Part shown: positions 10,503 through 33,587 of the stretch, one piece after another | How positions within the stretch are numbered: the stretch's first letter is position 1 | How the letters are laid out: every line of letters begins with the position of its first letter | The notes under the pieces: model-generated | Told to the model about the DNA's origin: nothing | Seen by the model: the letters and a program-made list of their open reading frames with translations, nothing else | The model's database searches: none | Assembly (NCBI GenBank): GCA_023268155.1 | Contig: JALNKM010000012.1 | Span: 1-35,420 of the forward strand | Origin: Candidatus Geocrenenecus huangii | Lineage (GTDB): Archaea; Thermoproteota; Nitrososphaeria_A; Caldarchaeales; Wolframiiraptoraceae | Length of the DNA stretch: 35,420 nucleotides | Reading direction: 5' to 3' | Program-made: the position numbers and the translations under genes

Positions 10503-10683
10503 CTTTTTTCACCCTACTTGAATTTTCATCCTAATTCTTTTTAGTTTTAGTCATTTAAGATAGCCGCATTCTAGTAAATTTTTATGTTCTGCCACTTAAT
10601 TTTTCACATATTCTAAGGATAATTGATTTAAAGAGAATGTTTACATTACCTAAATAAGATGCTCATTGACGATAGGTTGATAT

Positions 10684-11574: not shown

Positions 11575-11604
11575 AGCCTACATCACTAAAGCATTAAACA
11601 AAAA

Positions 11605-11615
11605 TAATATTTATC
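11605..11615 (-). promoter_or_regulatory. TATA box of the DPM1-like gene
   Basis: On the minus strand the gap between 11574 and 11645 contains agataaatatt, centred about 36 bases before the TTG start. The gap is 70 bases, whereas the genes upstream overlap, so a separate transcript start here is plausible. Confidence 0.4.
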
Positions 11616-11644
11616 TTAAACTCTAGTTCTATGAAGAATCTTTC

Positions 11645-13075: not shown

Positions 13076-15860
13076 TTCTGTAGATTACTAGATTCTCTGT
13101 TTCAAAAACTGGAACGGATTTTACAATTTCGTTAAGTATGTCAACTCTATCCCCACCCTCCATGATCGGCCTCGTAGTCGAAGTATACTTATAATTGAGG
13201 TGGGATAAATAATTTAGAGGCTTAAACTCTATCAATATATCTATAGCTTCATCTACAGTCTTCTTCTTAATGAGTACTCTCTGAGCCTTAAATTCCGGGT
13301 CTAATCCATAATCGATGCTTGCACCTTCATCAGCTTTGATTATAATACTGCCGGCATCAGTGACGAGGATAATCTGATTTCCTGTTCCATTAGCATACGA
13401 AATGCTTCTACCCCAAGATATCCAGATAGGTACTTCTATCTCGACTATCTCAACTCCAGGCTTAGGCTCAGCCTTATAGTAAATAGTAAGACTATCTCCT
13501 TTATCTGTAATTTCCTTATAGATATTTAATGCAATGGTTTCGTATACTACTCTATGGAAGGTTGTTAGATTTTCCTCATCTATAACCTTGGCTTTATATG
13601 GGGCTTCTCTCCATAATGCTCCAGCCTTAAAGAATGATACCCTTGCAAAAGCATCATCGATATAGATTATTTCACCTTCAGGGTATGATGGGGCCAGGCT
13701 CCTAGTCTTATGGAACAAGTGTTCTTTAAATGTGACGATATATCTTGGCCTAAAATCTTCTAAAGCTTTCTTAAAACTAGTAAACCAATTCTGTGGATAA
13801 AAAGAAGATGTGTCCGGATTTCTAAATATGATCGTAAATGAGTCTCCACTAGAGTTTAAAGGCAACTTAACATAAACTCTATGCTGATTAAATTCTTCAT
13901 AAACTCCTGCCTCAACAAGCGATACATTCTTATTAAACTCAACTATGATCTCAGAACTCTGTGTAGACAGCCTGAAACCGTTCCCCTTTCTGTAAATTTC
14001 TTTTATAATCTTCCCCCACGCTAGGAAGAAAGATATCTCAGCTTCTCTTAATGCTATTCCAGCGTTTGGCACTATATCGTATCTGAGGGTAAAGTATGGT
14101 ACTCCTGCACCTATTTCTAAGGTCTTATTTATTCTTAAAGCATGTGTCTGATAAGTTAGCTTGAACTTCTTAACCCCACTTTCTTCACTTACATCTAGAT
14201 GTGACAACCATGATTTGAAAGGCGCTTCTATCCATCCTCTCCCGCCTCTAGTAAAATTAAATCTAACGAATGAATCATCAAGGTAGATTATCTGGTCATA
14301 CCCCCACTTATGCGATACAGAGATTAATGGAGCAAAGGTTGGAGCAATAGGAGACTGGTCGGCTATAAAGAAATATCCGTTTGCAACTTCATAATTTGAT
14401 TGGAGTATAGCCTGAGCAGTAAGCGACCTATAGAATTCATCTCTCACAGCTATAGAACTTAACGGAATATCCATCAAAACTCTTCTAACAGCATACCCCT
14501 CAATCCATCTACCTAAATGGTATCCAGAGACAATAACATCATCTATAGAGGTGTTTTCTCGAATCCAATCTAGAATTTTCATCCTTTCACCGTCTAAGTA
14601 TCTTCCATAATCTCTTGAGAGCCATTCATAGTAGTCGTAGGCTGCCTGATTTGTAGATAATGCAGTTACTGGACATAGAACTAATGCTGTAGCCATGAGT
14701 ATTACTGGCAAGACTTTACCAACGTCTATCTCGGCAGAGTATTCCTGTTCATCCTCCTTCTTTACTATTCTCCCAAGCTCAGTAAGCCTCGGCATAATTA
14801 TTGTTGATGAGATTACCATTGGAACGCCTAAGAACAGCATTATTCTTCCCACATCTAAGCCTATACCAATATATTGAGAAGATGCGATAATCAATGGTGA
14901 TAATATCCATGCAGATAATGTTATGGCTGTAATATATCTCCAACTAACTACTAATACAATTATACCTAGTACTGACGACGACGACAACGTGTACAATATT
15001 ATTGGGTTCTTAAAACCCCATAGCATCCTCTCATATAGATCTGGGTGGGCTATGGTTGGATTATTTATAAGATAGCCAAACTTAATTAGATATGTAATGT
15101 ATGCCGCTATAATAGTTATAGAAGTAATAGCTCCTAGCCCAAATCTAATTGATAGCATCCTCATTAGCATGAGAAGAACGCATAATATAACTAGGGTACA
15201 TGCGAAGACAACTGCCGATATATGGTGGGTTAAAGCTATAGCAGATGATGCTAGAACCATCAGTAGGATGTTCTTGAGAGTTGAACCCGATTCCAAAACC
15301 ATGCTCACAATATATAGTGTTACCGGGAGAAGCGCCATCCCCAGTAAATTCGGATAAGCCCCCCACCATATCATCTCATAATGCATTGGGAGGAAAGAAG
15401 TTATCAATGATGCTGCTGCAGCAGCCTCCTTCCTATTAGATAACTTAAAAGCAAACCATCCTGAAGTAATCGGTATAGAAGAGAAAACTACTAAGGTTAA
15501 AACCTTTAAACCGGTGACAGCATCACCAAATATTAATGAAAATACTGCACCTATGAGATGGAATAGAGGTGGATACGATAACAGGTTCTCATTCCATAGC
15601 GGCTTTAAATTTCCCATGAATGCATTTATCCTCTTAAGCCAGTTCCCAGGATCATCTCCTACTGGAAGATATGTAGAGAACATTTTTGATCCAACGATAA
15701 TTCCAGAGGCTACTGGCCCTATTAGGAAAACTATTATGAAGACCCAGTCTATCAACTTTATTGAATTCAATTTATGAAGCCTAGCCCTCACAAAATGTCC
15801 ATACTGCACATTTAACATGTTTAGACCATATAAGGGTTTAACAAGATTTTTCTGCAACAT
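13059..15860 (-). CDS. Large GT-C/AglB-like membrane protein with a duplicated ectodomain
   Basis: A 933-aa protein. Residues 35-400 hold about 11-13 membrane spans. The first outer loop has YLPVGDDPGNWLK (Asp69-Asp70) and SYPPLFH, and the next has FLPMHYEMIWWGAYPN. After the last span comes ILDWIRENTSIDDVIVSGYH followed by LGRWIEGYAVRR. This is the place where AglB/STT3 carries WWDYG, which is absent here. Residues 524-690 and 731-884 are two copies of a beta-rich domain: IIYLDDSFVRF/WIEAPFK and IIYIDDAFARV/WREAPYK. It overlaps the GT4 gene upstream by 23 bases and the next GT-C gene by 17. The overall layout resembles the 729-aa paralogue at 17672. It probably transfers a sugar from a polyprenyl carrier outside the cell; the acceptor is unknown. 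Confidence 0.7.
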   Translation of the reverse strand: MLQKNLVKPLYGLNMLNVQYGHFVRARLHKLNSIKLIDWVFIIVFLIGPVASGIIVGSKMFSTYLPVGDDPGNWLKRINAFMGNLKPLWNENLLSYPPLFHLIGAVFSLIFGDAVTGLKVLTLVVFSSIPITSGWFAFKLSNRKEAAAAASLITSFLPMHYEMIWWGAYPNLLGMALLPVTLYIVSMVLESGSTLKNILLMVLASSAIALTHHISAVVFACTLVILCVLLMLMRMLSIRFGLGAITSITIIAAYITYLIKFGYLINNPTIAHPDLYERMLWGFKNPIILYTLSSSSVLGIIVLVVSWRYITAITLSAWILSPLIIASSQYIGIGLDVGRIMLFLGVPMVISSTIIMPRLTELGRIVKKEDEQEYSAEIDVGKVLPVILMATALVLCPVTALSTNQAAYDYYEWLSRDYGRYLDGERMKILDWIRENTSIDDVIVSGYHLGRWIEGYAVRRVLMDIPLSSIAVRDEFYRSLTAQAILQSNYEVANGYFFIADQSPIAPTFAPLISVSHKWGYDQIIYLDDSFVRFNFTRGGRGWIEAPFKSWLSHLDVSEESGVKKFKLTYQTHALRINKTLEIGAGVPYFTLRYDIVPNAGIALREAEISFFLAWGKIIKEIYRKGNGFRLSTQSSEIIVEFNKNVSLVEAGVYEEFNQHRVYVKLPLNSSGDSFTIIFRNPDTSSFYPQNWFTSFKKALEDFRPRYIVTFKEHLFHKTRSLAPSYPEGEIIYIDDAFARVSFFKAGALWREAPYKAKVIDEENLTTFHRVVYETIALNIYKEITDKGDSLTIYYKAEPKPGVEIVEIEVPIWISWGRSISYANGTGNQIILVTDAGSIIIKADEGASIDYGLDPEFKAQRVLIKKKTVDEAIDILIEFKPLNYLSHLNYKYTSTTRPIMEGGDRVDILNEIVKSVPVFETENLVIYRIEYPR

Positions 15861-16995
15861 CGTTAATTACTTTCTCCATTTCTATATATGTTTTTTCCCA
15901 AGTAAAATTTGATGCAAACCTCATACCTCTAAGAGATAAGTTTCTCCATAGTTCCTCATCTTTCAACAACCTTACAATTGAGGCTGCAAGCGAGTTCGGA
16001 GTAGGCTCTGCAATAAGTGCTTCTTCACCATCTTTCACCATACTTGAAAATGCGTTAAGTTGACTTCTTATAGATATTACGGGCGTCCCTGCAGCCATCG
16101 CCTCAATGTATGAAATGCCTTGGCCCTCTCTAGAGGAAGGTATCGCTACAATCCATGAACTTTTAATATGTTCTATTAGCTGCCTACGTGGTAAAGCTAT
16201 ATGGACATGAACTCCATACACCTTTGAAGCCAAATACTTAATATGGTCTCTTAATGGACCATCGCCTATTATGTGGAGAGATACTTCCATAAACTCGTTC
16301 CTGACGATTTCGTATGCTTGTATAAGTTTATCGATATTTTTGTGCGGCACAAAACGTCCAAAAAAGACTATCTTTCCATATTCACGTTCGGTATTTTGTA
16401 ATCCTTCATATTCTTTAAAATCAACACCATTCCATACAACGGGTATATTTCTATGTACCCTCAGGATCTTGTATAGCCGCTGTCTTGTAAAGTCGGAGAC
16501 AGCGATATGTTTTACTTCCTTAAGTCTAGCAGTGAGTTTTTCAAAAATATAGCCTCCCAAACCCTTTAGACCAAAACCAAAATAATATCTTCCCCAAACC
16601 TCATGCCAATCTACTATCATTCTTTTCCTTGAATCGACGTCATGACGGTATAAGTATATTATGTGTAGTAATGGCCACTCACTCAATAACATTGCATCAT
16701 ATTCATGTCTTAATACATGCTCCCTACATTTAGCGCTGAAATTCATTACACCTTTAAGCGACCTAGTCCCATCTTTTGAAAAATAATTCCTGCCAACATC
16801 GACTCTATGAATACTTAGATTACCCTGCTCTTCTTTTTCCGGTATCTTATCTACTCCTGCAGGTATATTATTATGCAGGATCGTTAAAACATCAACATAA
16901 TGCTTTGCTGCTAACGCCTCAGCAAGCCTAACATATCTAGTCTCAACCCCTCCAATGTATGGTTTAAAGCCTTCAGTGACGATAAGGATGTTCAT
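15838..16995 (-). CDS. GT4-family glycosyltransferase
   Basis: A 385-aa GT-B enzyme. The N-terminus has the classic GGVE loop (EGFKPYIGGVETRYVRLAEA), which binds the donor phosphate in many GT4 proteins. The C-terminal domain has FFGRFVPHKNIDKLIQAY and HIIGDGPLRDHIKYLA. The EX7E pair E290/E298 is in REGQGISYIEAMAAGTPVIS. All usual GT4 elements are intact. The gene overlaps the GT2 gene upstream by 4 bases and the 933-aa GT-C gene downstream by 23, in the middle of the six-gene operon. Sugar and acceptor are unknown. Confidence 0.9.
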   Translation of the reverse strand: MNILIVTEGFKPYIGGVETRYVRLAEALAAKHYVDVLTILHNNIPAGVDKIPEKEEQGNLSIHRVDVGRNYFSKDGTRSLKGVMNFSAKCREHVLRHEYDAMLLSEWPLLHIIYLYRHDVDSRKRMIVDWHEVWGRYYFGFGLKGLGGYIFEKLTARLKEVKHIAVSDFTRQRLYKILRVHRNIPVVWNGVDFKEYEGLQNTEREYGKIVFFGRFVPHKNIDKLIQAYEIVRNEFMEVSLHIIGDGPLRDHIKYLASKVYGVHVHIALPRRQLIEHIKSSWIVAIPSSREGQGISYIEAMAAGTPVISIRSQLNAFSSMVKDGEEALIAEPTPNSLAASIVRLLKDEELWRNLSLRGMRFASNFTWEKTYIEMEKVINDVAEKSC

Positions 16996-17669
16996 GGTGT
17001 AAATGGAAAACGACGTAACGTTCTTATTATTGGTATAGCGTCCCTTATTTTAAGCTTCTTCTTCCCGATTCTTCTTCTATAATTGATCGGGACCTCCATT
17101 ATTCTCCAACCTTTAGACAATATGTATAAATTCATCTCGGTCTCAATCTCGAAACCTTTTGAAAAAGGTTTCCAGTCTGAAATAGCTCTCCATCTAACAA
17201 CTCGGAGACCTGAAAGTGGGTCTCTAAGATTAATCGATCTCCAATAACGGTAGAGGCCTCGTATAAGAAAGTTTCCAAAAAAGTAGATATCTGTTAAGTA
17301 TTTCGAACGAGGTGCATTAGATAGCCTGTCACCTAGGACTGCTCCAACAGATTTATCAGACTCAATCAACTTAATCATTTTAGGTAAATAATCAGCAGGA
17401 TAAGAATGGTCACCATCAGTAAATATGACGAATTCAGGGTTATAGCTCTTTCTAAGATATTCCAACGCTGCAGCTACTGCAACACCTTTCCCTTTTTTAT
17501 TAAGATGCAATACTCTGGCTCCAGCATTTAAAGCATAGTCTCTAGTCTTATCAATACTTCCACCATCAATTATAAGTATCTCTAAATCTGGCATGACTCT
17601 TCTATACTCTTTTATCGTAGGCATTATGCCCTCCTCCTCGTTAAGTGTTGGGATCACCAAGATGAACAT
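16992..17669 (-). CDS. GT2 glycosyltransferase, soluble DPM1-like
   Basis: A 225-aa GT-A enzyme with IPTLNEEEGI at 6-15, DGGSIDKT at about 35-42, FTDGDHSYP with the metal-binding DXD at about 88-95, and DPLSGLR near 150. It lacks the C-terminal membrane helices of the other GT2 protein in this island, like the short form of dolichyl-phosphate mannose synthase. It probably loads a sugar onto polyprenyl phosphate at the cytoplasmic face for the GT-C enzymes on either side in the operon. The stop of the 729-aa gene lies 2 bases upstream, and the next gene overlaps by 4 bases (ATGA-type coupling). Confidence 0.88.
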   Translation of the reverse strand: MFILVIPTLNEEEGIMPTIKEYRRVMPDLEILIIDGGSIDKTRDYALNAGARVLHLNKKGKGVAVAAALEYLRKSYNPEFVIFTDGDHSYPADYLPKMIKLIESDKSVGAVLGDRLSNAPRSKYLTDIYFFGNFLIRGLYRYWRSINLRDPLSGLRVVRWRAISDWKPFSKGFEIETEMNLYILSKGWRIMEVPINYRRRIGKKKLKIRDAIPIIRTLRRFPFTP

Positions 17670-17671
17670 TA

Positions 17672-19861
17672 TTATTCCACCATCTTTAAAATTATAACCC
17701 TCTCATTCTGATATACTACGATGTATGCTGGATCATGAAGTAAGTGAAGATATTCATGCTTAGTTATGGGTTCAAGTGAGATATATCTGTTATGGGGTTT
17801 TACATGTTGTATCCTTGGAATTACAATATATTGTCCCCCGACTTCCTTCAAAATGTCTGCTGAGCGTATGACCTTGACTGAACCTACATTTTCCACTTCT
17901 CCGTCAGGCGATATCTTAATGAAACCTAAGATAGAATCGTTGTCATGAGCTGTTTTAAAGATGAATGGCATAGCGGTCATAGAATTCGTATCTATGAGAA
18001 ATCTTCCAATACTTGTGATCAATGTTAATCTACCAAATGTGCCAGCTCTGACATCCCATAGAGTTATTGAAGGCCACATCTTTAACTCTATAGCTAGCTT
18101 ATAGATGTTAACCTTATTTCTTAACGGCTCAGCCTTGAAAGATAAAATAACCTCGGCAGAATTACTGGTAACAGATAGAGTTTTCTCAACTATGCTATGC
18201 TCTAAAAAATATCTAATTATTAGTTTATCTTCCTTCTCTAATACCTCGATCTTTTGAGCATCTGATAGAAAATCTCTAAAATAGCCTGCCTCAGATACTC
18301 CTTCAACATAACTCGAGTTTGCTTCAAGATATAAGAGCTCTTCTAATGCTCCAAAAGCTTTCAAGGCAACCCTAGTAGACATGTTCTCACTAGGGTTTCT
18401 AGGCTCATATAGAGCTGCAAGATTGTTTGTTAAAGCTATTGATGAAAGTAGTATCGTCTTCGCCATATAAGCTCTCTCAAGCTCCCCCTGAACAAACAGA
18501 TACATTGGATGAGCAAGCATGAGTACACGCCTCGATGATAAACCCTCAATCCACCTAGCAATCTCTTCTTCAGCAACGATAACAACTCTTTCAGGAATAT
18601 TCTCTTCAATCCATTTAACTGCCTCGAGTTTCTCTCTGTCACCATACTTATCACGAAAATTATACCATTCGTTGAGATTATTAAAAGTTTGGATGCCATA
18701 GAAGATTGAAGAACAACATGATACAACTACGACTACCAGTATTATAATCTTAGCAAATCCGCTAAACTTAATTGACAGGAGAATCCTCAATAATTCTCGA
18801 AGTTTATCATATTTACCTATTCTAGATATAGAAGTATGCAGAGTATCAAATAGAAAAGATGTCGAGCCGGCTGCTAGAAAAATAAATGGATCCACAAAGA
18901 AGAAAAATACTCTATAATAGTCTAATGCAATCCCTAGCTTATGCATATTCAGTAGAAGGATCGGTGCCGAGGCCCAGGCAACTAATACAGAGACTTCAAG
19001 CAATCTCTTCTTAATGAAAATCGACATAACTATCGTTGAAGCGAATAGAAAGTATAGTGAAAACATTAGGATAGGGCTCTTAAAAATCCATGTTAATAAC
19101 CCACTCGAAATGACTGGCTCTAAATGATAGTAAGCAGCCTCATTATTTAAGACATATTGTGAAGACCGGAGAAATATTATACTGTAGATAAGATAACCAC
19201 CTATTGATGAGGAAGCTATAAGCGAAGTCTTCTTTACTATATTAGGCTTCTTTAAAAAAATAGATGATGCCAAGAGTAAGAGTAGGGTAGATGAATAGGC
19301 AAGGAAGGTAATATTATGTCCTATTGCTATAATTATCGAGAAAAGAAGTAAGAATGCTACCGTCTTAGAGAAACCCTTGTTAAGCCATGATACCAATAAG
19401 CTCATGGAGATGTTCATGAACGATAATGTTAGGAGGTTTGGATAACCTCCCCAACCAAGCATTTCTACATGAATAGGAAGAAACATAAACATTAATGCTG
19501 TCAAAAATGCGGTAAGTCTATTACCAAATATCATTATGGAAGATATGTAGGCTATTGCTGGTCTTATAGAGAAGACGAGCGTCGCCAAGAGTTTTACTGC
19601 TATTACAGGATCTAATTTGAGAAAGATTGCCACAGCTAGAATTGAGGGGAAGAGAGGTGGATAGTTAAGAGTTTTCTCTTCCCACATTGGCCAAGTTATG
19701 CCTAGGTAAGCTTTTGCATACTTTAACCATAAACCTCCATCAACCCACCAGGGTAAAGCCCTAGATCCGAGAAAACCCCAAGTAACTGCAAAAGTAATTA
19801 AGAAGATTATTAATGGAACTATATGGTCTAAAGGAAAACTTCTATATCTGGACTTTAACAT
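17672..19861 (-). CDS. GT-C/AglB-like membrane protein with a C-terminal ectodomain
   Basis: A 729-aa protein. About 11-13 spans occupy residues 12-385. The first outer loop has ALPWWVDGGLWLKYAK (Asp41) and NYPPLFPS; FLPIHVEMLGWGGYPN comes next. These match the corresponding loops of the 933-aa protein, so the two are paralogues. After the last span, VKWIEENIPERVVIVAEEE leads into IARWIEGLSSRRVLM, where AglB would have WWDYG. One beta-rich outer domain follows, ending DPAYIVVYQNERVIILKM. It is the second gene of the operon, 37 bases after the 44-aa protein gene. It should transfer sugar from a polyprenyl carrier outside the membrane, but it is not a canonical oligosaccharyltransferase. Confidence 0.7.
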   Translation of the reverse strand: MLKSRYRSFPLDHIVPLIIFLITFAVTWGFLGSRALPWWVDGGLWLKYAKAYLGITWPMWEEKTLNYPPLFPSILAVAIFLKLDPVIAVKLLATLVFSIRPAIAYISSIMIFGNRLTAFLTALMFMFLPIHVEMLGWGGYPNLLTLSFMNISMSLLVSWLNKGFSKTVAFLLLFSIIIAIGHNITFLAYSSTLLLLLASSIFLKKPNIVKKTSLIASSSIGGYLIYSIIFLRSSQYVLNNEAAYYHLEPVISSGLLTWIFKSPILMFSLYFLFASTIVMSIFIKKRLLEVSVLVAWASAPILLLNMHKLGIALDYYRVFFFFVDPFIFLAAGSTSFLFDTLHTSISRIGKYDKLRELLRILLSIKFSGFAKIIILVVVVVSCCSSIFYGIQTFNNLNEWYNFRDKYGDREKLEAVKWIEENIPERVVIVAEEEIARWIEGLSSRRVLMLAHPMYLFVQGELERAYMAKTILLSSIALTNNLAALYEPRNPSENMSTRVALKAFGALEELLYLEANSSYVEGVSEAGYFRDFLSDAQKIEVLEKEDKLIIRYFLEHSIVEKTLSVTSNSAEVILSFKAEPLRNKVNIYKLAIELKMWPSITLWDVRAGTFGRLTLITSIGRFLIDTNSMTAMPFIFKTAHDNDSILGFIKISPDGEVENVGSVKVIRSADILKEVGGQYIVIPRIQHVKPHNRYISLEPITKHEYLHLLHDPAYIVVYQNERVIILKMVE

Positions 19862-20097: not shown

Positions 20098-20710
20098 GTA
20101 GTGTCCGGATAAGCATTGTATTTAAAGGGATATGTTTCATGGTAGTTGTAGGAAGGTCTTCGAAGGTTCTAATCCTTGCCCTTGAGCCTATAAGTAAGTC
20201 CACGGTAAACGAGCTTGCTGGGAAGTTCTCCTCAATAGTTAAGATCTCTCTAGATTCTAAGATTAGGAGGTGTATAGCTGTTGATGAGACGAAGCTCAAG
20301 GTTAAGGGTGTTATAGTATATGTATGGTCTGCAGTAGACGTGGATTCAGGCGAATTACTAACTCTAGAAGCTTCATATTGTAGGAGCTGCCTGAACACTC
20401 TACTATTCCTTAAGAAGACCTTGAGGCTATGCATGAACAGCCTAAGATTATAGTTGATAGGGATCCATGGTATCTATAGGCTCTAGAGAGGCTTGGCCTA
20501 GAGTATGAGCATTAAAGGTTCGGAGTGAGGAGTAGGGTTGAGAGATTCTTCAGATACCTTAAGGAGAGGACCATGGTGTTCCATAACAAGCTAAACGCAA
20601 GAGAATATATGCAGGGAATAACTAACCTAAACATATTCCTCAAACTATTCACTCTATACTACCAGGTCATGAAGGGTGGAGGTGGTTAAACATGCTTATC
20701 CTGACACTAC
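20098..20710. mobile_element. IS6-like insertion sequence, decayed (copy B)
   Basis: Inverted ends are gtagtgtccggataagcat (20098-20116) and the complement of 20692-20710, gtagtgtcaggataagcat, 18 of 19 identical. The element is 613 bp and holds one DDE transposase pseudogene. The same ends occur in a 106-bp MITE (25485-25590), at 28129-28143 and at 32031-32045, so this is the reference copy of the family in the window. No convincing target duplication is seen. The assignment to IS6 rests on the transposase. Confidence 0.8.
20139..20689 (+). pseudogene. IS6-like (ISPfu/IS240-like) DDE transposase pseudogene
   Basis: The frame from ATG 20139 gives CIAVDETKLKVKG and VYVWSAVDVDSGELL, with the first catalytic Asp in VDET. 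A frameshift near 20437 moves the reading to PKIIVDRDPWYL, with the second Asp. A TAG precedes ALERLGLEYEH and a TAA follows it, and then RFGVRSRVERFFRYLKERT supplies the catalytic Glu. It ends MKGGGG at TAA 20687-20689. Order and spacing match IS6-family transposases of archaea. One frameshift and two stops make it inactive. The N-terminus before VDET is short and probably has an internal deletion, judging by the different N-terminus of the copy at 31914-31994. Confidence 0.8.
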
Positions 20711-21435: not shown

Positions 21436-24102
21436 ATGAGTTTGGAAAATAATAAGTTTGCAGGAAAAGTAAAAAACGTCATAGCCATAGGCTTAATCGC
21501 AGCGCTTCTATTGACTAGTTTTGCAGTAGGATTCAGTCTGGTGAGCCTTAAAGAAGAAGTTGAAGTCGTTTGGTGGCCAGACCCAGCGACATGGTACATG
21601 AATGTTGATGGGACTTTATCAAGCGACGATTTTCCATACTTCCCATACAATACAACGAATCTAAATATAGGATTCTCCAAGTTTGGCGAAATGATCGATA
21701 TGGTTCATAAGAAAGGTTTGGAATTCGGTGCAGTTGATCCATTTGCTCCACCAGGCGGCCCAAGCATAGGTTCAGTACCAGAGTATACTTGGCTGAACGG
21801 CTGGACCATAAATATAACATATAGTTATAGGATATTGCCTGGAGTAGTTACGAGGAATGTTTGGGCAGTAGCGATTTACTCTGATAGGGCAGGCGTTAGA
21901 GGACCATGGCTAAGAGTAGACTTTCCTGCTGGAGATTGTGCTGGGACCTCAGCTGACGGAGACAGCCCCTTCGGATACAAACATGGATGCGAAGACCCAA
22001 TAGATAGAGGACACGTAATCTGGGATGAACACTATACTCAAGCAGCTTATCCATACAATGCTCTACATAATGGTGGAAGAAAGACCAATGGAACCGTCAT
22101 AACAGAACCCATCAATGTACTCTATGAAGATAATAGAAGATTCGTAGCAGTACTGGTAAACCATGTATACGACCATCCAGAGCCAGGACCATCAACTGAA
22201 GGAGACATACACTTAGTAGACGTAGTCTTCACAATAGACTTCTACAAAGATAAACATCAAGTAATAGTACTCAAGGATATTAAGTCAAAGATAAGTGAGA
22301 AAGAGCTTGAAGGAAGAATGAATATACAGTTTAGCAATAGAGGAGAATGGGACCTTGGAACAGAGCAAGCCGGCTACGCAAGCTACTACCACTTCTACAC
22401 AGAAGGAAATTGTTCTGGTTTTGATACTTCTTCTGAGTCATTCCCAACAGAATACACTGAAGACTACCATCTCTTACTAAGAGATATCTACCCGTTTGAC
22501 ACTAGTGTGTCAGAACCTGGAAAGACCTGCTACGCGAGATATAGACTAGGTGGAGAAGACGATGGCTGGGATAGATTTGACCTCTTCCAAGCTATAAATC
22601 CAGGAGCAGATGTTGTAGGCTATGCAGCTTTCTGGCCTCCATTAAGCGATTGGTCTGCATATGGCTGGGCTTACGCTCTCAGGTCTATGGATGCTGGAGA
22701 CCCCCACTACATCGATGCACCAACACCACCAGGTGAGCCATCGATACCATACGTAATCGGTGAATGGGACTTTGAATTAAGCCACAAAGATGCTCCAGAC
22801 AATGCATTCAGAGGAGTAACAGTATATGGAGTAACAGAGCTTGTTGAAGCTGATGATCAAAACATAGGTATTGGACATAGTAACATCCCTGAAGATGAAG
22901 TATTAAACTATACGTTGCAAGAAGTCTTCAACCCATGGGACCTTCGGGATGCATCACGTAAAGATACATTTAGATGGGCATATATAGCCCATGTGCCAGT
23001 TGGCCTCCAAATAAATCTAACGAATGTAGCTGAAGAAATTATCCCAGAAGAGAATTGGCGTACAATTCACATCGTGCCTGACGATGAGTGGGATGATTAT
23101 AGCGTCTTCGCTGAAAGAATCTTCGATTTGACAACTGGAAAACTACTAGTGAGAGGCGTTAACTACAATATATCAGGTACAATAATATACTTCGAGTCTG
23201 AATTAAAAGGGCATCTTGTTAAGATACTGTTCAGTACAGTGGGAGAACCTTTTGGTAGATATGAGTGGATAATTGTTGGTAGAGACTCGAACCCGATAGA
23301 CTCAGCTGGAGCAGCAATGGTTGCAGCAGCATTGAAGAATAAGGATTGCGCTACGATAACATTAGAAGATGAAGATATATTCCTATGTACGCCTATTGAG
23401 GTTGGTTTAGCGGGCTTCGATATGTGGAATCCAGGGTATCCAACGGCTGCATCTGTGATGAAGAGGTTTGGCCCTGGAACGACTGTATTTGACTTCATGT
23501 TCAATCCAGCTGGTGGAGACTATAGAACAGCATTCTTAAACCATTGGCCCAACAACCTTAACTGGTCTGTGAAGACATCGAATATAATCGCTGTCGGCGG
23601 ACCTGGAGCAAACCTCGTATCAGATTACTTCAACTCATTCAGCCAAGCAATATTCAGGAGCAGTAGTGGAATGTACTGGCGTATAGGCGGACCACCATAT
23701 GATTGGCTAATACCATCTGACTGGGGTGCAAATAGAATACATCCATATCCAGATAGGGCTGCTGGAGAAGGCTTAGCCGTGATAACGACATACAAGGACC
23801 TGGATGGAACAGTTGGACTGGTAGTCTACGGAGCAACTGGAGAAGATACATGGTGGGCAACTCACTGGCTATACGATATACACGGTGATCATGTCTGCTT
23901 CACCTACTACAACTTGACCGCTGGTCAGAATATTGAAGTGTGTGGAGAGAATGGTCTTAGACTCCTACAAAATATGAATCCTGGAGTAACTACGATAGTT
24001 CTATCGATAAAGTATCCAAGCACCATGCCGCCGTTTACTCCAGATATAGAGGTAATAAAGCTTTTAGGAACAATAAGTACAAAGACTCCGAAGGACCCAT
24101 AA
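21436..24102 (+). CDS. Large secreted glycoprotein, probable S-layer or S-layer-associated protein
   Basis: An 888-aa protein. Residues 12-36 form a signal peptide or anchor. The rest is polar and aromatic-rich, with nine N-X-S/T sequons (NTT, NIT, NGT, NCS, NYT, NLT, NIS, NWS, NLT) and eight cysteines spaced as four likely disulfides. The C-terminal region holds IIVGRDSNPIDSAGAAMVAA (612-631), NIIAVGGPGANLVSDYFNS (716-734) and GLVVYGATGEDT (794-805). These resemble the GGP-N and D-AA-IAAAL elements of archaeal S-layer outer domains. They also match the C-terminal domain of the subtilase at 25802. No C-terminal membrane span is present, so anchoring would be through the N-terminal helix or partner proteins. 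Size, promoter and neighbouring glycan genes suggest an abundant surface protein; S-layer identity is inferred. Confidence 0.65.
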   Translation: MSLENNKFAGKVKNVIAIGLIAALLLTSFAVGFSLVSLKEEVEVVWWPDPATWYMNVDGTLSSDDFPYFPYNTTNLNIGFSKFGEMIDMVHKKGLEFGAVDPFAPPGGPSIGSVPEYTWLNGWTINITYSYRILPGVVTRNVWAVAIYSDRAGVRGPWLRVDFPAGDCAGTSADGDSPFGYKHGCEDPIDRGHVIWDEHYTQAAYPYNALHNGGRKTNGTVITEPINVLYEDNRRFVAVLVNHVYDHPEPGPSTEGDIHLVDVVFTIDFYKDKHQVIVLKDIKSKISEKELEGRMNIQFSNRGEWDLGTEQAGYASYYHFYTEGNCSGFDTSSESFPTEYTEDYHLLLRDIYPFDTSVSEPGKTCYARYRLGGEDDGWDRFDLFQAINPGADVVGYAAFWPPLSDWSAYGWAYALRSMDAGDPHYIDAPTPPGEPSIPYVIGEWDFELSHKDAPDNAFRGVTVYGVTELVEADDQNIGIGHSNIPEDEVLNYTLQEVFNPWDLRDASRKDTFRWAYIAHVPVGLQINLTNVAEEIIPEENWRTIHIVPDDEWDDYSVFAERIFDLTTGKLLVRGVNYNISGTIIYFESELKGHLVKILFSTVGEPFGRYEWIIVGRDSNPIDSAGAAMVAAALKNKDCATITLEDEDIFLCTPIEVGLAGFDMWNPGYPTAASVMKRFGPGTTVFDFMFNPAGGDYRTAFLNHWPNNLNWSVKTSNIIAVGGPGANLVSDYFNSFSQAIFRSSSGMYWRIGGPPYDWLIPSDWGANRIHPYPDRAAGEGLAVITTYKDLDGTVGLVVYGATGEDTWWATHWLYDIHGDHVCFTYYNLTAGQNIEVCGENGLRLLQNMNPGVTTIVLSIKYPSTMPPFTPDIEVIKLLGTISTKTPKDP

Positions 24103-24113
24103 AACCCCCTGCA

Positions 24114-24158
24114 TATTTTTATAAAACCAATCTTTATTTTTTAATTTCTTGAATTTTT
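24114..24158 (+). terminator. T-rich transcription terminator of the secreted-protein gene
   Basis: Starting about 11 bases after the stop codon are three T-runs in 45 bases (atattttta, ctttattttttaattt, gaattttta). This is the normal archaeal intrinsic termination signal. No strong hairpin is visible. Confidence 0.5.
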
Positions 24159-24584
24159 AGATATGTTTTCTGAAGATCTATCTAGAATACGTACTATGAA
24201 AATATCTTAATCTATACCATGCAATCTATCTCCACACCATTTGCAACTGCCCTCATAATAGATGGACTTAAATAAACATTGGTAGAAATAGCTTCTGATG
24301 GAGGGAGTTCCTCAAAGCTCAAAGATCTTCGAGGGCTGATGAAGACCTGGAGAGAGTTACTCTGACCAGGGCATGGGGCCATGAGAGCGTTATGGGCTAT
24401 GGAAGGCCCAGATACTTCATGCTCAAAGTATCAGGCGCTAATACGGTAGAATAGTAAGCATGGGTTGATGAAGCTTCTTCGAGGCAAAGATACCTAAAAG
24501 GCCCTTACAAATAAAAACTTAAAGAAACGCAAAATATACTTAGTATTTAAAGTCTAGCCTTCTTCTAGGTAGTCTTAAGCAGAC
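24159..24584. other. Intergenic stretch without recognisable gene
   Basis: No open frame with coding character is seen. A run from about 24298 to 24450 reads partly open (GYGRPRYFMLKVSGANTVE) but is interrupted and matches nothing recognised. It is probably a decayed mobile gene, given the debris that follows. Confidence 0.4.
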
Positions 24585-24967
24585 TTACATAGCTCTGGAG
24601 ATTCGCCAGCCTCGGAGTGCCCTGAGTTCATCGCCTCCAATCGAGCTCATGCATCTCTCCATAGCCTTTCCAATATATTTGACTGTCCTCCTTCTTATTT
24701 CTTCTTTGCTTAAGCCGAGCATCGCCTCGACATACTGGTGCATGACAGCATCGAAGGTTATTGCTCTAAGGCATAGCTTTGGGTCTTCGAAGTACTTGTG
24801 GAGCTGCTCATCTATGTACCTGTTCAGGAAGGCTATCAGCGGGCTGCGTCGACCCATCTCCACAGTATATGGTCTCCGCCAGCTAAAAAGCTTAACACTC
24901 CACGGCTCCATTGACCGCATCCTTATGGCTGGAGGAGGATGAAGGCTGGAAGCCTCGTTCCTCCTCC
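24585..24967 (-). pseudogene. Cassette gene 2, unknown protein, copy 1 (frameshifted)
   Basis: An ATG at 24967 lies 3 bases after the stop of the HTH pseudogene. The opening frame runs into a stop, and the conserved part resumes in another frame: SPLIAFLNRYIDEQLHKYFE, then DPKLCLRAI, HQYVEAMLGLSKEEIRRRT and YIGKAMERCMSS. It aligns along about 85 residues with the product of 28942-29319, and the shared residues (PLIAF-N, HK-F-DP--CL-AI, HQY-E, GLS--EI-RRT--Y-GKAME-CM-S) define a family that I cannot name. It is Cys- and charge-containing, helical and soluble. The function is unknown. Confidence 0.6.
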
Positions 24968-24970
24968 ATC

Positions 24971-25266
24971 CTCTATGATCTCTCGACGATTAGCCTGAAG
25001 ACAGCTCTCATCAAAACCTTCACATCTTCTTCAAGCTTCTTAATCCTCTCCTCAAATCTGGCCTTCAACAGCCTTCTTTATCTCCTCATACTTTTCCAGC
25101 TTCTTCGACAGCCTCTTCATATGGATGGAGATATTTGGAGTTAGATACTCCGAGGCGCTTTAGCCGCTTTCGTCACGCTTACACCTTCTGCGATTAGGTT
25201 GTAGACTTCGATCTGTCTCTCAGTGAGACCAGCAGCCCTCAACTCCTTAAGGCTATACCTCTTCAT
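24971..25266 (-). pseudogene. Cassette gene 1, HTH DNA-binding protein, copy 1 (broken)
   Basis: From ATG 25266 the frame reads MKRYSLKELRAAGLTERQIE and VYNLIAEGVSVTKAAKA. It then breaks with several frameshifts and stops, and resumes as RFEERIKKLEEDVKVLMRAV to the TAG at 24971-24973. The intact homologue at 29323-29620 shows that the lost part is the second helix of a helix-turn-helix like those of sigma-70 region 4 or Tfx proteins, followed by a coiled coil. It is upstream of, and 3 bases from, the partner gene. Confidence 0.65.
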
Positions 25267-25484
25267 AGACCTCTTTATAGACTCTAATAGCTTTGGCGGT
25301 TAAAAGATCTTCAATATCGTTATACAAGTGTTTAGCTAGTGTGCTTAACCTGTGGCCCAGTAGATGAAGAGGGCTGAGGATTCAAGGGGGCCGCAGCATT
25401 AATGTCAGATACTCTATGCAGCCTCTCTAGCCTTCGCATGAGACTCTGAGGGGGTGTATGGCAGCCGTAGTTAGCAGTTTCTGG

Positions 25485-25590
25485 GTAGTGTCCGGATAAC
25501 GCTTTAAATAGTATGAGACCTGGACTCAAGCTTGTGATATCTAGGAAGAAAGTGGTTCAGACTTTAAATACCATCTTATCCGGACACTAC
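25485..25590. mobile_element. 106-bp MITE derived from the IS6-like family
   Basis: The ends gtagtgtccggataa (25485-25499) and the complement of 25576-25590 are identical over 15 bases and match the termini of the IS copy at 20098-20710. On the right side the similarity continues inward: gataagatggtatttaaag against gataagcattgtatttaaag at the IS left end. It has no coding capacity. The element looks like an IS end copied in inverted orientation around a short filler. Confidence 0.85.
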
Positions 25591-25801
25591 CTCAACCCAA
25601 GACATAAAACAAATATAGATGGTAGGCCATAAACCTTCTTAAGTTGACAAGCCCCTAGAAAGGAGAAAGTGAAGAAATATTATTTTAGAGCTGCCTTGAA
25701 CATATTACTTGTGACAGCGAACATTATCACTCTCAAATTGATATAGTATTCCTAGATTTGCATTTTAAAATCTTATAGGTGAGAATATTCTCTCATGAGT
25801 A

Positions 25802-28078
25802 TTAGCCTTCCCAGAACTCGATCAAAGATATTATATCTCTGTAATCTACTCTATTATTAGCATTTGAATCCTCCCACTTAATTATAACTGCCCTACCTAC
25901 AAGTATGCTTCTATACTGGTCGTAACGCGCTAAAACCATGCTTCCAGCTAACGTTCCATAACCTGTTAGACCCCAGACTAATAAGATAGGCTTCCCAGAT
26001 TCTTGGTCAACTATTGTTTGGATTATAGAATAATCGCTAGACTCCCAAATAGAGTTATAGAACCTCTGGGTCAGCTCACTATATATCGATGAACCATATC
26101 CCAGTCTATAAATCCATTTGAATGGTGATGAAGAATTATATCTGTAGGCTACCATATTGACTCCTGGTCCACCAACCGAAATAATAGATGAAGAATCAAT
26201 TTTACTCCAATTGATCTCCAGCACCCCGTTGACGCAGTAGGAGATTCCGGTATCGAGATAGAGTTCCGGCAAGCCTTCTTCACTCTCCAACCCTATCCTC
26301 GCTGAGATTATAGATGAACCTAAAGCATCTATGGTTCTTGCTTGGAGACTGAAGCATCCATGGCTGAAACTATCTCCTAGAACGATTGCATAGTCTGCAA
26401 TTCCATCTCTTACGAATGGTGATGGAAAATCTGTCAAAGTTAGGTATACTTCTCCAGTAAAGATTTTAGATCCTTCTTGAAGTCCTTCTTTAGATGCTGT
26501 AATTAATATCTGGGTTTTTCCAGGAAATCCTACTCTAATCTGTCCTACATATATTCCATCATCTCCCATGTTATCTGGAGGGAAGCCATCATCACTCAGC
26601 CTTATCTCCTTCAACAAAATCTGGTTAACATATATGGCTGCTGATACATTGGCATCGATTACAGGGTTGGGCCCAGCTATAACTTCAACCTTAAGAATCA
26701 CATTATCGCTTATACTCCATTTAAAATTTTGAGAAATCGTTATTGGTAGAATCTTAATTTTATCACCTTGATTTCTAAGAGAATTATATGCATTTAATCT
26801 TCCACCGCTTCTGAAAAGGTTAATTAGTGAGGGATACTCATCCACAGAGCTTAGAATCAACCTCTTTACCTCCAGATAACTATATGATGGGTGCTTGGAG
26901 AGTATTAGAGCAGCAACTCCAGAAACATGAGGGGCCGCCATAGAGGTACCTGAGAGCCACTGATAAGAATCTTGGAGAAATGTGCTAAGAATGTATTGAC
27001 CAGGCGCTGCTAGGTCTACTGAGAGCTGACCCCAATTAGAGAACCAAGCCAGTTCATCTCTATCATCCGTAGCGGCTACCGAGATTATGTTTGACAGGTT
27101 ATATGAAGATGGATAATGAGGTTCTAGATCATTATTCTTTGCTTGATTTCCTGCAGCAGCAACAAACAATATGTCTTCATTCTCTAATGCTCTTATAGCA
27201 TCGTATAATGATCTAGAAAAGGAGCCGCCACCCCAACTATTATTGGTTATCCTGATATTGATGCCTCTCCTCTTCATACCTATAACGTATTCTATGGCCT
27301 CTATTGCATCACTTGTATATCCCGAGCCAGTTGCATCTGCAAATTTTAGAGCCATGATCTTGATCCTCCAATTAATCCCCGTAACCCCTAATCCATTATT
27401 TCCTAATGCTCCTATAACTCCAGCAACGGCTGTTCCATGTCCATGATCATCCATCGGATCTCCATCATCGTTACATGTATCAGCACCGTATATGTCGTCT
27501 ACATATCCATTACCATCATCATCTACTCCATTAACAGTCTCAAATGGATTGATCCAAATATTTCCAGCAAGGTCTGGATGCCTATAGTCTATTCCTGTAT
27601 CTATAACAGCTATGATGATAGATTCTGTACCTACAGTCTCGGTCCATGCCTCAGGGGCATCAATATCAGCATCAGTTAATCCACCTATCTGACCAGTATT
27701 ATGTAGACTCCACTGATACTGAAACATTGGGTCGTTTGGGAATACTTCCTCCACCCAAATTCTATAATCTGGTTCAGCATATTCTATAGATGGGATCCTC
27801 GAAAGCTCACTTAAAACCTTACTGACCTCCAACCCCTCTCTAACTTTGAGCAAGCTGATATTAACTATCCCATAGTGTTTTAATTCTCTATCGATAAGCT
27901 GGGATAGCCTACTTGCCTCAGTAACATAGCTTCTTCCTAGCTTAAACTTAACTAAGACCCGCCCAGGAGCATGCTCAGACTCTGAAGAGCTATTGAAACC
28001 TACAACCACGAGTGTAGTAGATAAAGTATTGAACAGTATTGATAATATGATTAGATAAACTAATCTCTTACGAAGCAT
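25802..28078 (-). CDS. Secreted subtilisin-like serine protease with S-layer-type C-terminal domain
   Basis: Numbering is from the TTG at 28093; I prefer the ATG at 28078 (residue 6), because the TATA box lies 29 bases before it and only 14 before the TTG. The protein has a signal peptide (about 9-31) and an inhibitor I9-like propeptide (42-113). The S8 domain has D165 (AVIDTGID), H219 (DDHGHGT), N316 and S384 (SGTSMAAPH), plus a calcium loop DDDGNGYVDD. A beta-sandwich (445-555) with DDGFPPDNMGDDGIY follows. The domain at about 565-735 shares ISVGGPGVN and LLVWGLTG elements with the 888-aa secreted protein. The tail DSNANNRVDYRDIISLIEF resembles a dockerin/EF-hand calcium loop. It is probably a cell-surface protease that matures or turns over surface proteins. 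All catalytic residues are present. Confidence 0.9.
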   Translation of the reverse strand: MLRKRLVYLIILSILFNTLSTTLVVVGFNSSSESEHAPGRVLVKFKLGRSYVTEASRLSQLIDRELKHYGIVNISLLKVREGLEVSKVLSELSRIPSIEYAEPDYRIWVEEVFPNDPMFQYQWSLHNTGQIGGLTDADIDAPEAWTETVGTESIIIAVIDTGIDYRHPDLAGNIWINPFETVNGVDDDGNGYVDDIYGADTCNDDGDPMDDHGHGTAVAGVIGALGNNGLGVTGINWRIKIMALKFADATGSGYTSDAIEAIEYVIGMKRRGINIRITNNSWGGGSFSRSLYDAIRALENEDILFVAAAGNQAKNNDLEPHYPSSYNLSNIISVAATDDRDELAWFSNWGQLSVDLAAPGQYILSTFLQDSYQWLSGTSMAAPHVSGVAALILSKHPSYSYLEVKRLILSSVDEYPSLINLFRSGGRLNAYNSLRNQGDKIKILPITISQNFKWSISDNVILKVEVIAGPNPVIDANVSAAIYVNQILLKEIRLSDDGFPPDNMGDDGIYVGQIRVGFPGKTQILITASKEGLQEGSKIFTGEVYLTLTDFPSPFVRDGIADYAIVLGDSFSHGCFSLQARTIDALGSSIISARIGLESEEGLPELYLDTGISYCVNGVLEINWSKIDSSSIISVGGPGVNMVAYRYNSSSPFKWIYRLGYGSSIYSELTQRFYNSIWESSDYSIIQTIVDQESGKPILLVWGLTGYGTLAGSMVLARYDQYRSILVGRAVIIKWEDSNANNRVDYRDIISLIEFWEG

Positions 28079-28193: not shown

Positions 28194-28930
28194 GTGCTTA
28201 ACCATAATTTACGACTAAGAGAAGACATTATCCTCTTTATAAGGCTTTGGAGATCTTTCCCATCTTTATCAAGCTGGAAGTGTTGGGGAGCTTTGGAGAA
28301 GGCTAGGAGTGGTAATGATCTCCACCGAGTTTTCCAATCATTTATCAGTAGGCTTGAATCCGAGGGTTCTAAGCCTAAGACTATCTACTACTATCTATGT
28401 TCTAACTTCCTTCCTAAGGTTTTATAATATTACATACCAGAATGCTTTGAAGAAGGTTCGGAAACCGAAGAAGGCTCCTGTCAGGGTTGATAGGCTTCCA
28501 CCGATTGGAGACCTCCAGAAGATGATCCTCTCCAGTAAGAGTTTACGCTTGTCAATGCTTATCCAGCTTCGAGCCCAGATTGGTATGAGGCTTAACGAAG
28601 CATTAAACTTGTAGGTGGAGTATATTGATTTCGAGAATAACGTGATAAGTCTTCCAGGAGCCATAACCAAGAATGGTAAGCCTAGGCAGATCCCATTGAT
28701 AAGTGAACTTAAGACAACTCTACAAAACTATCTCAAGAAGATGAAGATCGAACATAGATACCTTTCCCCAAGTGAAGAAGATCGTGAGAGGCCATGTAGG
28801 GTAGAACGGGTCTACGATAGATGCTATGCTCTGCTTAAAAGACTGGCCTCTCAATGTAAGAGGCCACATCATAGAGGCTATAAGGATTGGAGGAGATCAT
28901 CTAATAGTGTGGATGGGTCTACGGGTAGCG
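28194..28930 (+). pseudogene. Tyrosine integrase/recombinase pseudogene 1
   Basis: The N-terminal SAM-like core-binding domain is in one frame (LHRVFQSFISRLESEGSKPK, then TIYYYL). A frameshift near 28405 moves the reading to FLRFYNITYQNALKKVRKPK, LPPIGDLQKMIL and QLRAQIGMRLNEALNL with the first catalytic Arg. A TAG follows, then VEYIDFENNVISLPGA and TKNGKPRQIPLI, all typical of archaeal XerA-like or viral integrases. The second half with H-x-x-R and the Tyr nucleophile is not recognisable; reading degrades near 28760-28930 where the HTH cassette copy 2 begins. At least one frameshift, one stop and a 3' truncation are present. Confidence 0.75.
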
Positions 28931-28941
28931 GTCATACTCGG

Positions 28942-29319
28942 CTAAGACTTAAAGATATTCTTGAGCATCGATCTCATACACGTCTCCATGGCCTTCCCCA
29001 CGTATCTAGCCGTCCTCCTCTCTATCTCATCTCTACTCAAGCCGAAGATGATCTCAAGATACTGATGGAGGAGCGTGTCGAGATATATCGCTTCTAGACA
29101 GCGGTTAGGATCCTTGAAGTGTTTGTGGAAGCGCTTGTCGACCAGCTTATTCATGAAAGCTATCAGTGGATCGTGTCTGTTCATCCTCCATGATATGTGG
29201 CCCCACTGGGTTAAAAAGCTTAACAGCTCCATGAGTCCACATAATGGAGTAATAGAGAAGTCGGCTAGCTGGATAGTGGTCGAAGCATGTGGAAAGCTTC
29301 TACTTCGATCTGTCCCCAT
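28942..29319 (-). CDS. Cassette gene 2, unknown protein, copy 2 (possibly intact)
   Basis: The 125-aa product is of no recognised family. Its conserved core, RHDPLIAFMNKLVDKRFHKH through DPNRCLEAIYLDTLLHQYLE, GLSRDEIERRT and YVGKAMETCMRS, aligns with the frameshifted copy at 24585-24967. It is predicted to be helical and cytoplasmic. The ATG at 29319 follows the stop of the HTH gene by 3 bases, so the two were translated together. The first 40 residues are not similar to copy 1 and may themselves be shifted. Because its HTH partner carries a frameshift, this gene may be expressed poorly or be on the way to loss. Confidence 0.5.
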   Translation of the reverse strand: MGTDRSRSFPHASTTIQLADFSITPLCGLMELLSFLTQWGHISWRMNRHDPLIAFMNKLVDKRFHKHFKDPNRCLEAIYLDTLLHQYLEIIFGLSRDEIERRTARYVGKAMETCMRSMLKNIFKS

Positions 29320-29322
29320 CCT

Positions 29323-29620
29323 TTAAGACCTCTCTATTATCAGTAGGAGGACAGCTCTCATGAGTATATCTACATTCTCTTCAATCTTCTTAATCCTCTT
29401 CTCGAACTCTTCTTGAACCGCCTTCTCTACTTCCTCATATCTTCTAAGCTTCCTCATGGCCTTCTTCAAGTGGATCGAAATGTTCGACTTCGATGTCCCA
29501 AGAGCCTCCGCTACTTCTCTCATAGTCTTCCCTTTAGCTATCATATTGTAGACCTGGATCTGTCTTTCCGTTAGCCCAGCCCCTTAATTCTCCTAGGCTA
29601 TACCTCTTTGTGAAAGGCAT
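29323..29620 (-). pseudogene. Cassette gene 1, Tfx/sigma-region-4-like HTH protein, copy 2 (one frameshift)
   Basis: From ATG 29620 the frame reads MPFTKRYSLGELRG. A shift near 29580 restores GLTERQIQVYN and then MIAKGKTMREVAEALGTSKS with NISIHLKKAMRKL. This is a helix-turn-helix with the LTERQ...SNISI pattern of Tfx and sigma-70 region 4 proteins. A coiled-coil region EVEKAVQEEFEKRIKKIEEN follows, and the protein ends MRAVLLLIIERS. The part from 29544 down is open and could still be made as a 73-aa product. It is paired with the unknown gene 3 bases downstream, exactly as in copy 1. Confidence 0.65.
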
Positions 29621-32102: not shown

Positions 32103-33587
32103 TCAGTAGATTAATGAGAGTATTGGTCTCAGATACGGGTATAGTTTTTCTAGGAACTGTCTTGATGCTATTGATTCTCCTATCTCTCTTAGATCTTCTT
32201 TCGTGATTATTCTTAGCTTAGCATAAATGAAGTAGGATACAGAGAGAATCATTAAACCTATTACCCAGTATGCTTCAAAGAATTTTAGTAGTACAGATAA
32301 GGCTGAAGGTATCATGATTATTTTTAGATATTCTTTGAATTGGAGATTATAGTTCATTTTACGAGCAAGTATAATGACCATCAACAATGTTGTTATATTC
32401 CCTAGCGAGAATGTTACTGCTGCACCTATATCTCCATAGAGATTTATCAAGAGGGGATAGAGTAGCAATCTAGGGATAGTTCCAGCGAGACCTATTGCTA
32501 AGACATGGCTATAATTTCCGATAGCATACGCATAGTACGTGTAGCCTGCATTAATAGGCGATATCAAGTATCCAAGTGTTAAGAGTCTTATTGGCTCAGA
32601 AGCTCCAGTATATGCTTCTCCAAGGAATTTAGGTAAAATTGATGAATAGAGTATTAAGAAGAAGGCTATCGGAGCGATGAGCGATGCGGAGATCTTTACA
32701 GCTCTATACATAGCTCTCTTCCTACCGTCATGCATCCCGCTAATAGTTGGGAAAGAGAGTGTTAAGATAGATTGTGGAAAACTCATAACCGCAGATGTTA
32801 TTGTAAATGCAATAAAGTATAGGCCTGTCTCTGCTAACCCGCCTATAGAGTATACTCCTAGAACGCCGGCACACTGACTAAGGAGTGTTAAGATATCTGG
32901 AATCCATGAAGATACTCCTGCTCTTAGAGAATCTCTTATAGAATTGATGGAGAAGGAGAAACTTGTTCTAGTCTTTGTCAGTATATACATCGGAAGAGTT
33001 AACATCAAGATTGATGTTGTTAATCCAGCAACTACATACCCCATCATCAACCCTATAAAACTATAGCCTAGATAGATCAGTAGTAGACTTACGGCTAGTC
33101 TAATTAGGGATGAAGATATTTGTGTTAAAGCAGTATACTCTGTCTTGAGCGTAGCATTAAAGAATGATTGACCGATAATCGACCATCCATTAAATCCGCA
33201 GATGATTAATATGCATAGGAAGATTATTGAAAGAAGGTCTAGTGAGAACAGTCCATTGTACATTAAAGAAAGAACTATTAAGATTATATCAGCCGATAAG
33301 CTCAAAATAAATAGTAGGATCATAGGTGAGTAGTAGTATTGAGATAGCTTCTCGTAGTCTCTCCTACTGTACATTGCACCCATAAATCTTTGAACACCAA
33401 TTGGGATTCCAAGATTTATAAAAGCCGTAATTAAAGCTTCTACACTAAGTATTGCCGCAGCCCTCCCAACAACATCTACTTCAACAAACTTAGACATTAC
33501 AAGCCAGTAGATGAATCCGAAGAAGTTTGAGAAAACTACTCCGATGCTTAACCACAAAGCTCCTCTGAATACCCGGCCAAGACTCAA
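32103..33587 (-). CDS. Wzx-type polysaccharide flippase (MOP superfamily)
   Basis: This 494-aa protein has about 14 membrane spans and the N-terminal pattern of polysaccharide exporters: RGALWLSIGVVFSNFFGFIYW with WLVMSKFVEVDVVGRAA, then LGIPIGVQRFMG in the second span pair. The length matches the family. Such proteins move lipid-linked oligosaccharides from the cytoplasmic to the outer face. It lies about 12 kb from the glycan island, yet is the only exporter in the window, so it is a good candidate for flipping the product. The start is TTG at 33587, since no nearby in-frame ATG exists. The neighbours are IS fragments on both sides. Confidence 0.88.
   Translation of the reverse strand: MSLGRVFRGALWLSIGVVFSNFFGFIYWLVMSKFVEVDVVGRAAAILSVEALITAFINLGIPIGVQRFMGAMYSRRDYEKLSQYYYSPMILLFILSLSADIILIVLSLMYNGLFSLDLLSIIFLCILIICGFNGWSIIGQSFFNATLKTEYTALTQISSSLIRLAVSLLLIYLGYSFIGLMMGYVVAGLTTSILMLTLPMYILTKTRTSFSFSINSIRDSLRAGVSSWIPDILTLLSQCAGVLGVYSIGGLAETGLYFIAFTITSAVMSFPQSILTLSFPTISGMHDGRKRAMYRAVKISASLIAPIAFFLILYSSILPKFLGEAYTGASEPIRLLTLGYLISPINAGYTYYAYAIGNYSHVLAIGLAGTIPRLLLYPLLINLYGDIGAAVTFSLGNITTLLMVIILARKMNYNLQFKEYLKIIMIPSALSVLLKFFEAYWVIGLMILSVSYFIYAKLRIITKEDLREIGESIASRQFLEKLYPYLRPILSLIY

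Follow-up and report, generated by a model that had tools for sequence, protein, structure and literature searches.

Two genes for secreted proteins face each other in the window, by which we mean the whole stretch of 35,420 nucleotides from Candidatus Geocrenenecus huangii that was analysed. One, on the forward strand (21436-24102), encodes a protein of 888 residues; the other, on the reverse strand (25802-28078, with its ATG at 28078), encodes a subtilase, and the two convergent genes are separated by a gap of 1.7 kb. A sequence-only reading of this DNA had placed the genes in this way and had proposed that their products share a C-terminal domain. All the strings that it quoted are present: DSAGAAMVAAAL at residue 622, IIAVGGPGANLV at 717, VITTYKDLDG at 782 and GLVVYGATG at 794 of the 888-residue protein, and ARTIDALGSSII at 580, IISVGGPGVNMV at about 631-632, IIQTIVDQESG at 685 and LLVWGLTG at 699 of the subtilase. 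In both proteins, hydropathy places a hydrophobic span solely at the N-terminal signal.

The 888-residue protein and its family

The predicted signal peptide of the 888-residue protein (residues about 1-36; 21436-21543, forward strand, as are all its features) is followed by a region that family alignments define as conserved and that has no Pfam match (residues about 40-514; 21553-22977). An S_layer_C-like domain, delimited by Pfam, profile alignments and a structural model, makes up the C-terminal part (residues about 608-865; 23257-24030), and the IIAVGGPGANLV motif lies within it at residues 717-728 (23584-23619), as located by the family alignment and the sequence. Apart from the single N-terminal hydrophobic segment there is no membrane span by hydropathy, at the C-terminus or elsewhere. 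With its signal segment, its 888 residues and its nine N-glycosylation sequons, the protein is secreted and large in the manner of S-layer proteins; we take it to be a probable surface-layer (coat) protein, which as such would form a lattice. With no C-terminal membrane span, its attachment to the cell would require a partner.

When an alignment was used as the query against genome contigs, 22 named records related to this protein were found, mostly in Bathyarchaeota MAGs; the protein used as a single-sequence query retrieved zero relatives from the genome contigs, and none was found in a scan of viral contigs. Within a sample of 398 genomes of the phylum, relatives occur in 17 other genomes. 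The gene is absent from all other genomes of the order (43 of 43, four congeners included), and it was likely acquired horizontally. Contig mis-binning is an unlikely explanation for this absence, because three congeners have orthologues, 82-88% identical, of a geranylgeranyl-reductase-like gene from this contig. Almost all complete family members end exactly in D-P, usually as H-D-P or H-x-D-P; this ending was seen in 14 of the 15 complete relatives checked (for example those at L100-L120) and is encoded in the window at 24094-24099. The ending may act as a signal for assembly or sorting. One relative of 1048 residues (L056, 8470-11613) carries, ahead of its S_layer_C-like domain, an insert that is likely to be a von Willebrand type A domain.

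Glycosyltransferases, a polysaccharide deacetylase, large membrane proteins and a polysaccharide flippase are encoded at 9780-19861 and 32103-33587, which are probably parts of a surface glycan cluster adjoining the coat-protein gene. Closer to the pair, an IS240-type DDE transposase and a tyrosine recombinase have left fragments at 20139-20453 and 28615-29097, and the subtilase gene is flanked by two diverged (65%) direct copies of about 640 bp (24640-25264 and 28967-29608), which are remnants of a helix-turn-helix gene with frameshifts; further copies of this remnant were not found in the whole genome.

The subtilase and the shared C-terminal domain

The subtilase has 758 residues, and its features all lie on the reverse strand. 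Behind a signal peptide region predicted from hydropathy (27989-28078) come a fervidolysin-type prodomain (residues 28-104; 27767-27997; PF22148, E 1.4e-7), the S8 catalytic domain (residues 114-434; 26777-27739; PF00082, E 2.4e-59) and a linker domain (residues about 436-545; 26444-26773), which is common to the subtilase of a Bathyarchaeota locus described below and is probably a beta-sandwich. The protein belongs to Peptidase S8 by both domain and triad: D160, H214 and S379 are in place together with the oxyanion residue N311 and the motifs DTG, HGT and GTSMA; judged from these residues, the catalytic apparatus is intact. The closest solved relative of the catalytic domain is deseasin MCP-01 (3vv3; phmmer E 3.3e-111). 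The likeness to this and other S8 subtilases is confined to the catalytic domain; the deseasin match spans residues 114-434 only, and the C-terminal domain is unmatched among the matches listed. The other two subtilases of this genome have no S_layer_C-like domain.

This C-terminal domain occupies residues 563-758 (25805-26392) according to Pfam, profile alignments and a model, with the IISVGGPGVNMV motif at residues about 631-642 (26153-26188), placed by family alignment and sequence, and a terminal VIIKWEDSNANNRVDYRDI element as its last part (25838-25903), placed by alignment with relatives. The sequence-only reading had taken the end of the protein for a separate dockerin tail, and this did not hold. 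In alignments with relatives, the stretch DSNANNRVDYRDI falls on the terminal element of the domain, Pfam gives no dockerin match in the subtilase at E<=1, and AVIIKWEDSNANNRVDYRDI corresponds to the final domain element of relatives, such as AMIIQWIDSNNNAKVDADD, AVVEGLDLNGDGKIDS and YVFHWVDKGKRDGVPQSGE; we therefore rejected a dockerin.

Compared directly by BLASTP, the 888-residue protein and the subtilase align over the GGPG motif alone (E 0.043), which is what one would see if a short GGP motif had given two unrelated domains a superficial likeness. Relatives were gathered for profiles because the Pfam match of both window proteins fell below the cut-off, and two alignments were built from non-overlapping sequence sets, one of the subtilase type (A1) and one of the coat type (A2). 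Aligned with each other by hhalign, they match with 97.4% probability over 127 columns (E 1.1e-11) and a score of 79; the scores of 12 column-shuffled controls were 10-15, with probabilities of <=0.3%. Together with other parts of the coat protein, the controls ranged from 9 to 21, and the 21 came from a block that contains the start of the S_layer_C-like domain itself. With GGPG cut out, the N-terminal half still scored 24.3 (maximum of 60 shuffles, 14.4) and the C-terminal half 26.1 (shuffle maximum, 13.2). The outcome named beforehand as fatal to the idea, a profile alignment covering the motif alone, thus did not arise; the halves on either side match, and a likeness limited to GGPG is ruled out at the sequence level. 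In addition, the A1 profile, which holds no sequences of the 888-residue type, finds two places in the whole genome, the subtilase and the 888-residue protein (E 4.1e-7), and both families match PF05124 and the solved structure 9FSA. A superficial likeness is thus highly improbable, and on this sequence evidence the two C-terminal domains are homologous. The 1.7-Mb genome has no third copy of the domain, and the two lie in neighbouring genes. The disulfide pair that had been proposed as a shared landmark does not belong to the domain: C638 and C651 of the 888-residue protein lie in an insertion missing from its aligned relatives, and C575 and C615 are private to the window subtilase.

The kinship to archaeal S-layer domains that the same reading had suggested is borne out. 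Both families include members that match PF05124 (S_layer_C), with a best E of 7.2e-8 in relatives of the subtilase domain; the window proteins themselves fall below the curated cut-off of 23.9 bits, at 11.6 bits (E 0.22) for the 888-residue protein and 13.3 bits (E 0.068) for the subtilase. Considering that the relatives of the subtilase domain score better, the window domain is, by profile comparison, a divergent relative of PF05124 and not a listed member. The best PDB sequence match of the A1 profile, and the sole relevant solved relative of the domain, is 9FSA (E 0.0024), whereas PDB sequence searches with the coat-family profiles gave zero matches. For the coat domain, an AlphaFold2 model (pLDDT 73, pTM 0.75) has 9FSA as its top Foldseek match (probability 0.94, E 0.06), and the matches of the weak model of the subtilase domain (pLDDT 61, pTM 0.65), whose core elements follow in the same order, include it as well (probability 0.89, E 0.10); both E-values are above 0.001, and the second match is supporting only, not independent, since the alignment behind that model contained coat-protein rows.

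The crystal structure 9FSA shows the domain that anchors the S-layer protein of Methanococcus voltae, with residues 24-75 joined to 484-576, and this domain is described as responsible for anchor dimerisation (PMC11410804). The weak sequence and fold evidence places it in the same domain family as the two domains here. There are two differences: in M. voltae the domain is split, its parts being separated by the remaining sequence, whereas here it forms an uninterrupted C-terminal unit, and one of the two copies here sits on a protease.

Carriers of the domain across genomes

The pairing of a domain-bearing protease with a coat-protein gene recurs in other genomes, as the co-occurrence check proposed for the original idea found. 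A Bathyarchaeota genome (PFL2; L113) has a domain-bearing subtilase beside its coat gene, 47% identical to the window subtilase across propeptide, catalytic domain and linker, and in Bathyarchaeota A05DMB-4 (L120) such a subtilase lies 213 bp downstream of the coat gene on the same strand. Three genomes of one genus (G052, G094 and G100), probably Pyrobaculum to judge by their size and genes, encode secreted metzincin-like proteases (HExxHxxGxxH), each with two tandem copies of the domain, at distances of 0.6 kb, at most 10 kb and at most about 17 kb, respectively, from a coat-family gene. The domain is also carried by a C25 gingipain-like protease (L190; PF01364, E 3.9e-50) and by further S8 proteins (L090 and L188). 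The domain is absent from all 13 subtilases that, among those of the phylum without an adjacent coat gene, are most similar to this one. Coat-family genes are present in 6 of the 11 genomes with secreted domain carriers and in 4 of 69 others (Fisher p 2.5e-4; p 1.1e-3 with this genome excluded), in a test with small numbers, non-independent lineages and control genomes picked by identifier number.

The secreted carriers at L090 (23-5734), L188, L190, L189, L191 and L094 comprise large S8, C25 gingipain-like, HExxH and DUF3131 proteins; their domain is at the C-terminus, except in L191, where it is near the N-terminus.

Several observations speak against a strict coupling of protease and coat. 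Four genomes (G098, G223, G339 and G382) encode secreted domain carriers, and no coat-family gene was detected in them; at another locus (L100), the subtilase adjoining the coat gene lacks the S_layer_C-like domain. Moreover, a protein of about 320 residues that combines a winged helix at its N-terminus with an S_layer_C-like domain at its C-terminus is widespread in the phylum and accounts for most of the 57 to 81 domain-positive genomes among the 398 sampled (for example L099, 4159-5130, where PF05124 scores just over its cut-off, and L062, L063, L064, L093 and L096-L098). Because these winged-helix proteins have no obvious signal, the domain seems to work inside cells there, perhaps as a dimeriser or sensor.

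Proposed docking on the cell coat and its alternatives

We propose the following for the window pair. The C-terminal domain of the coat protein would be a dimerising anchor or assembly domain of the S_layer_C kind. The subtilase would be exported by the Sec pathway and then lose its propeptide; having no membrane anchor of its own, it would be kept at the cell surface through its S_layer_C-like domain, which would pair with that of the coat protein or bind the same partner. The result would be proteolysis at the cell coat, which may serve peptide acquisition or coat processing. That the subtilase is docked to the surface lattice through this domain, by whatever route, strikes us as somewhat the likelier state of affairs, and the route is probably that its domain pairs with the anchor domain of the coat protein. 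Docking by domain pairing is the most economical reading, since the domain dimerises an S-layer anchor and the subtilase lacks an anchor of its own.

Sharing a domain is by itself no proof of docking, however, given the winged-helix carriers and the secreted carriers in genomes without a detected coat-family gene. Indeed, the presence of the domain in winged-helix proteins of many genomes means that it may be a general dimerisation fold, and the main rival to docking is a role in homodimerisation only. The domain would then be a general homodimerising or ligand-binding alpha/beta fold through which the subtilase self-dimerises or gains stability, the neighbour's copy being coincidental; 9FSA, itself a dimerisation domain, fits this as well as the intracellular-looking and coat-less carriers do. 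A coincidence sits poorly, though, with a genome whose only two copies are neighbours and with domain-bearing proteases of unrelated classes that cluster with the coat family in several lineages, and we regard this explanation as a serious but minority prospect. It is also conceivable that the subtilase matures or turns over the coat protein, its domain serving to locate the substrate. The gene neighbourhood would suit such a role, and the protease STABLE has been proposed to cleave the precursor of tetrabrachion (PMC5744192); however, a protease of this kind was seen in the flank at only 3 of 22 loci of coat relatives, with flanks that are often cut short, and this role appears improbable.

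Protease docking on a coat as proposed here resembles a known archaeal system. In Staphylothermus marinus, STABLE, a subtilisin-family protease, is bound to the S-layer protein tetrabrachion (PMC5744192), so that in both cases a protease of this family would be attached to an archaeal surface-layer protein. As far as that review goes, STABLE is described as bound to the coiled-coil stalk, with no mention of a shared anchor domain, whereas the protease here has a C-terminal domain homologous to that of the coat protein.

Taken across the carriers, the domain may have a wider use. In Thermoproteota, this domain, homologous to the S-layer anchor, may serve as an exchangeable tag at the C-terminus, which would plug unrelated secreted enzymes (subtilases, gingipain-like C25 proteases and metzincin-like metalloproteases) into the lattice through the coat's anchor domain; we hold this broader proposal tentatively, as somewhat short of an even prospect. 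Bacterial SLH-domain enzymes offer a parallel, in that an anchoring domain reused from an S-layer protein holds them at the cell surface. The SLH domain binds a cell-wall polymer and is unrelated to the archaeal S_layer_C-like domain, and peptidoglycan is absent in Archaea.

A shared anchor domain would give a concrete rule by which lattice-bound enzymes could be spotted from sequence, and a domain-pair interaction that is open to in vitro testing. The same pairing of protease and domain in other genomes suggests a way of fixing digestive enzymes onto the archaeal cell coat. Bathyarchaeota and their relatives have been discussed as degraders of detrital protein (PMC6752024), and the present finding provides a lead on how they might hold peptidases at the cell surface.
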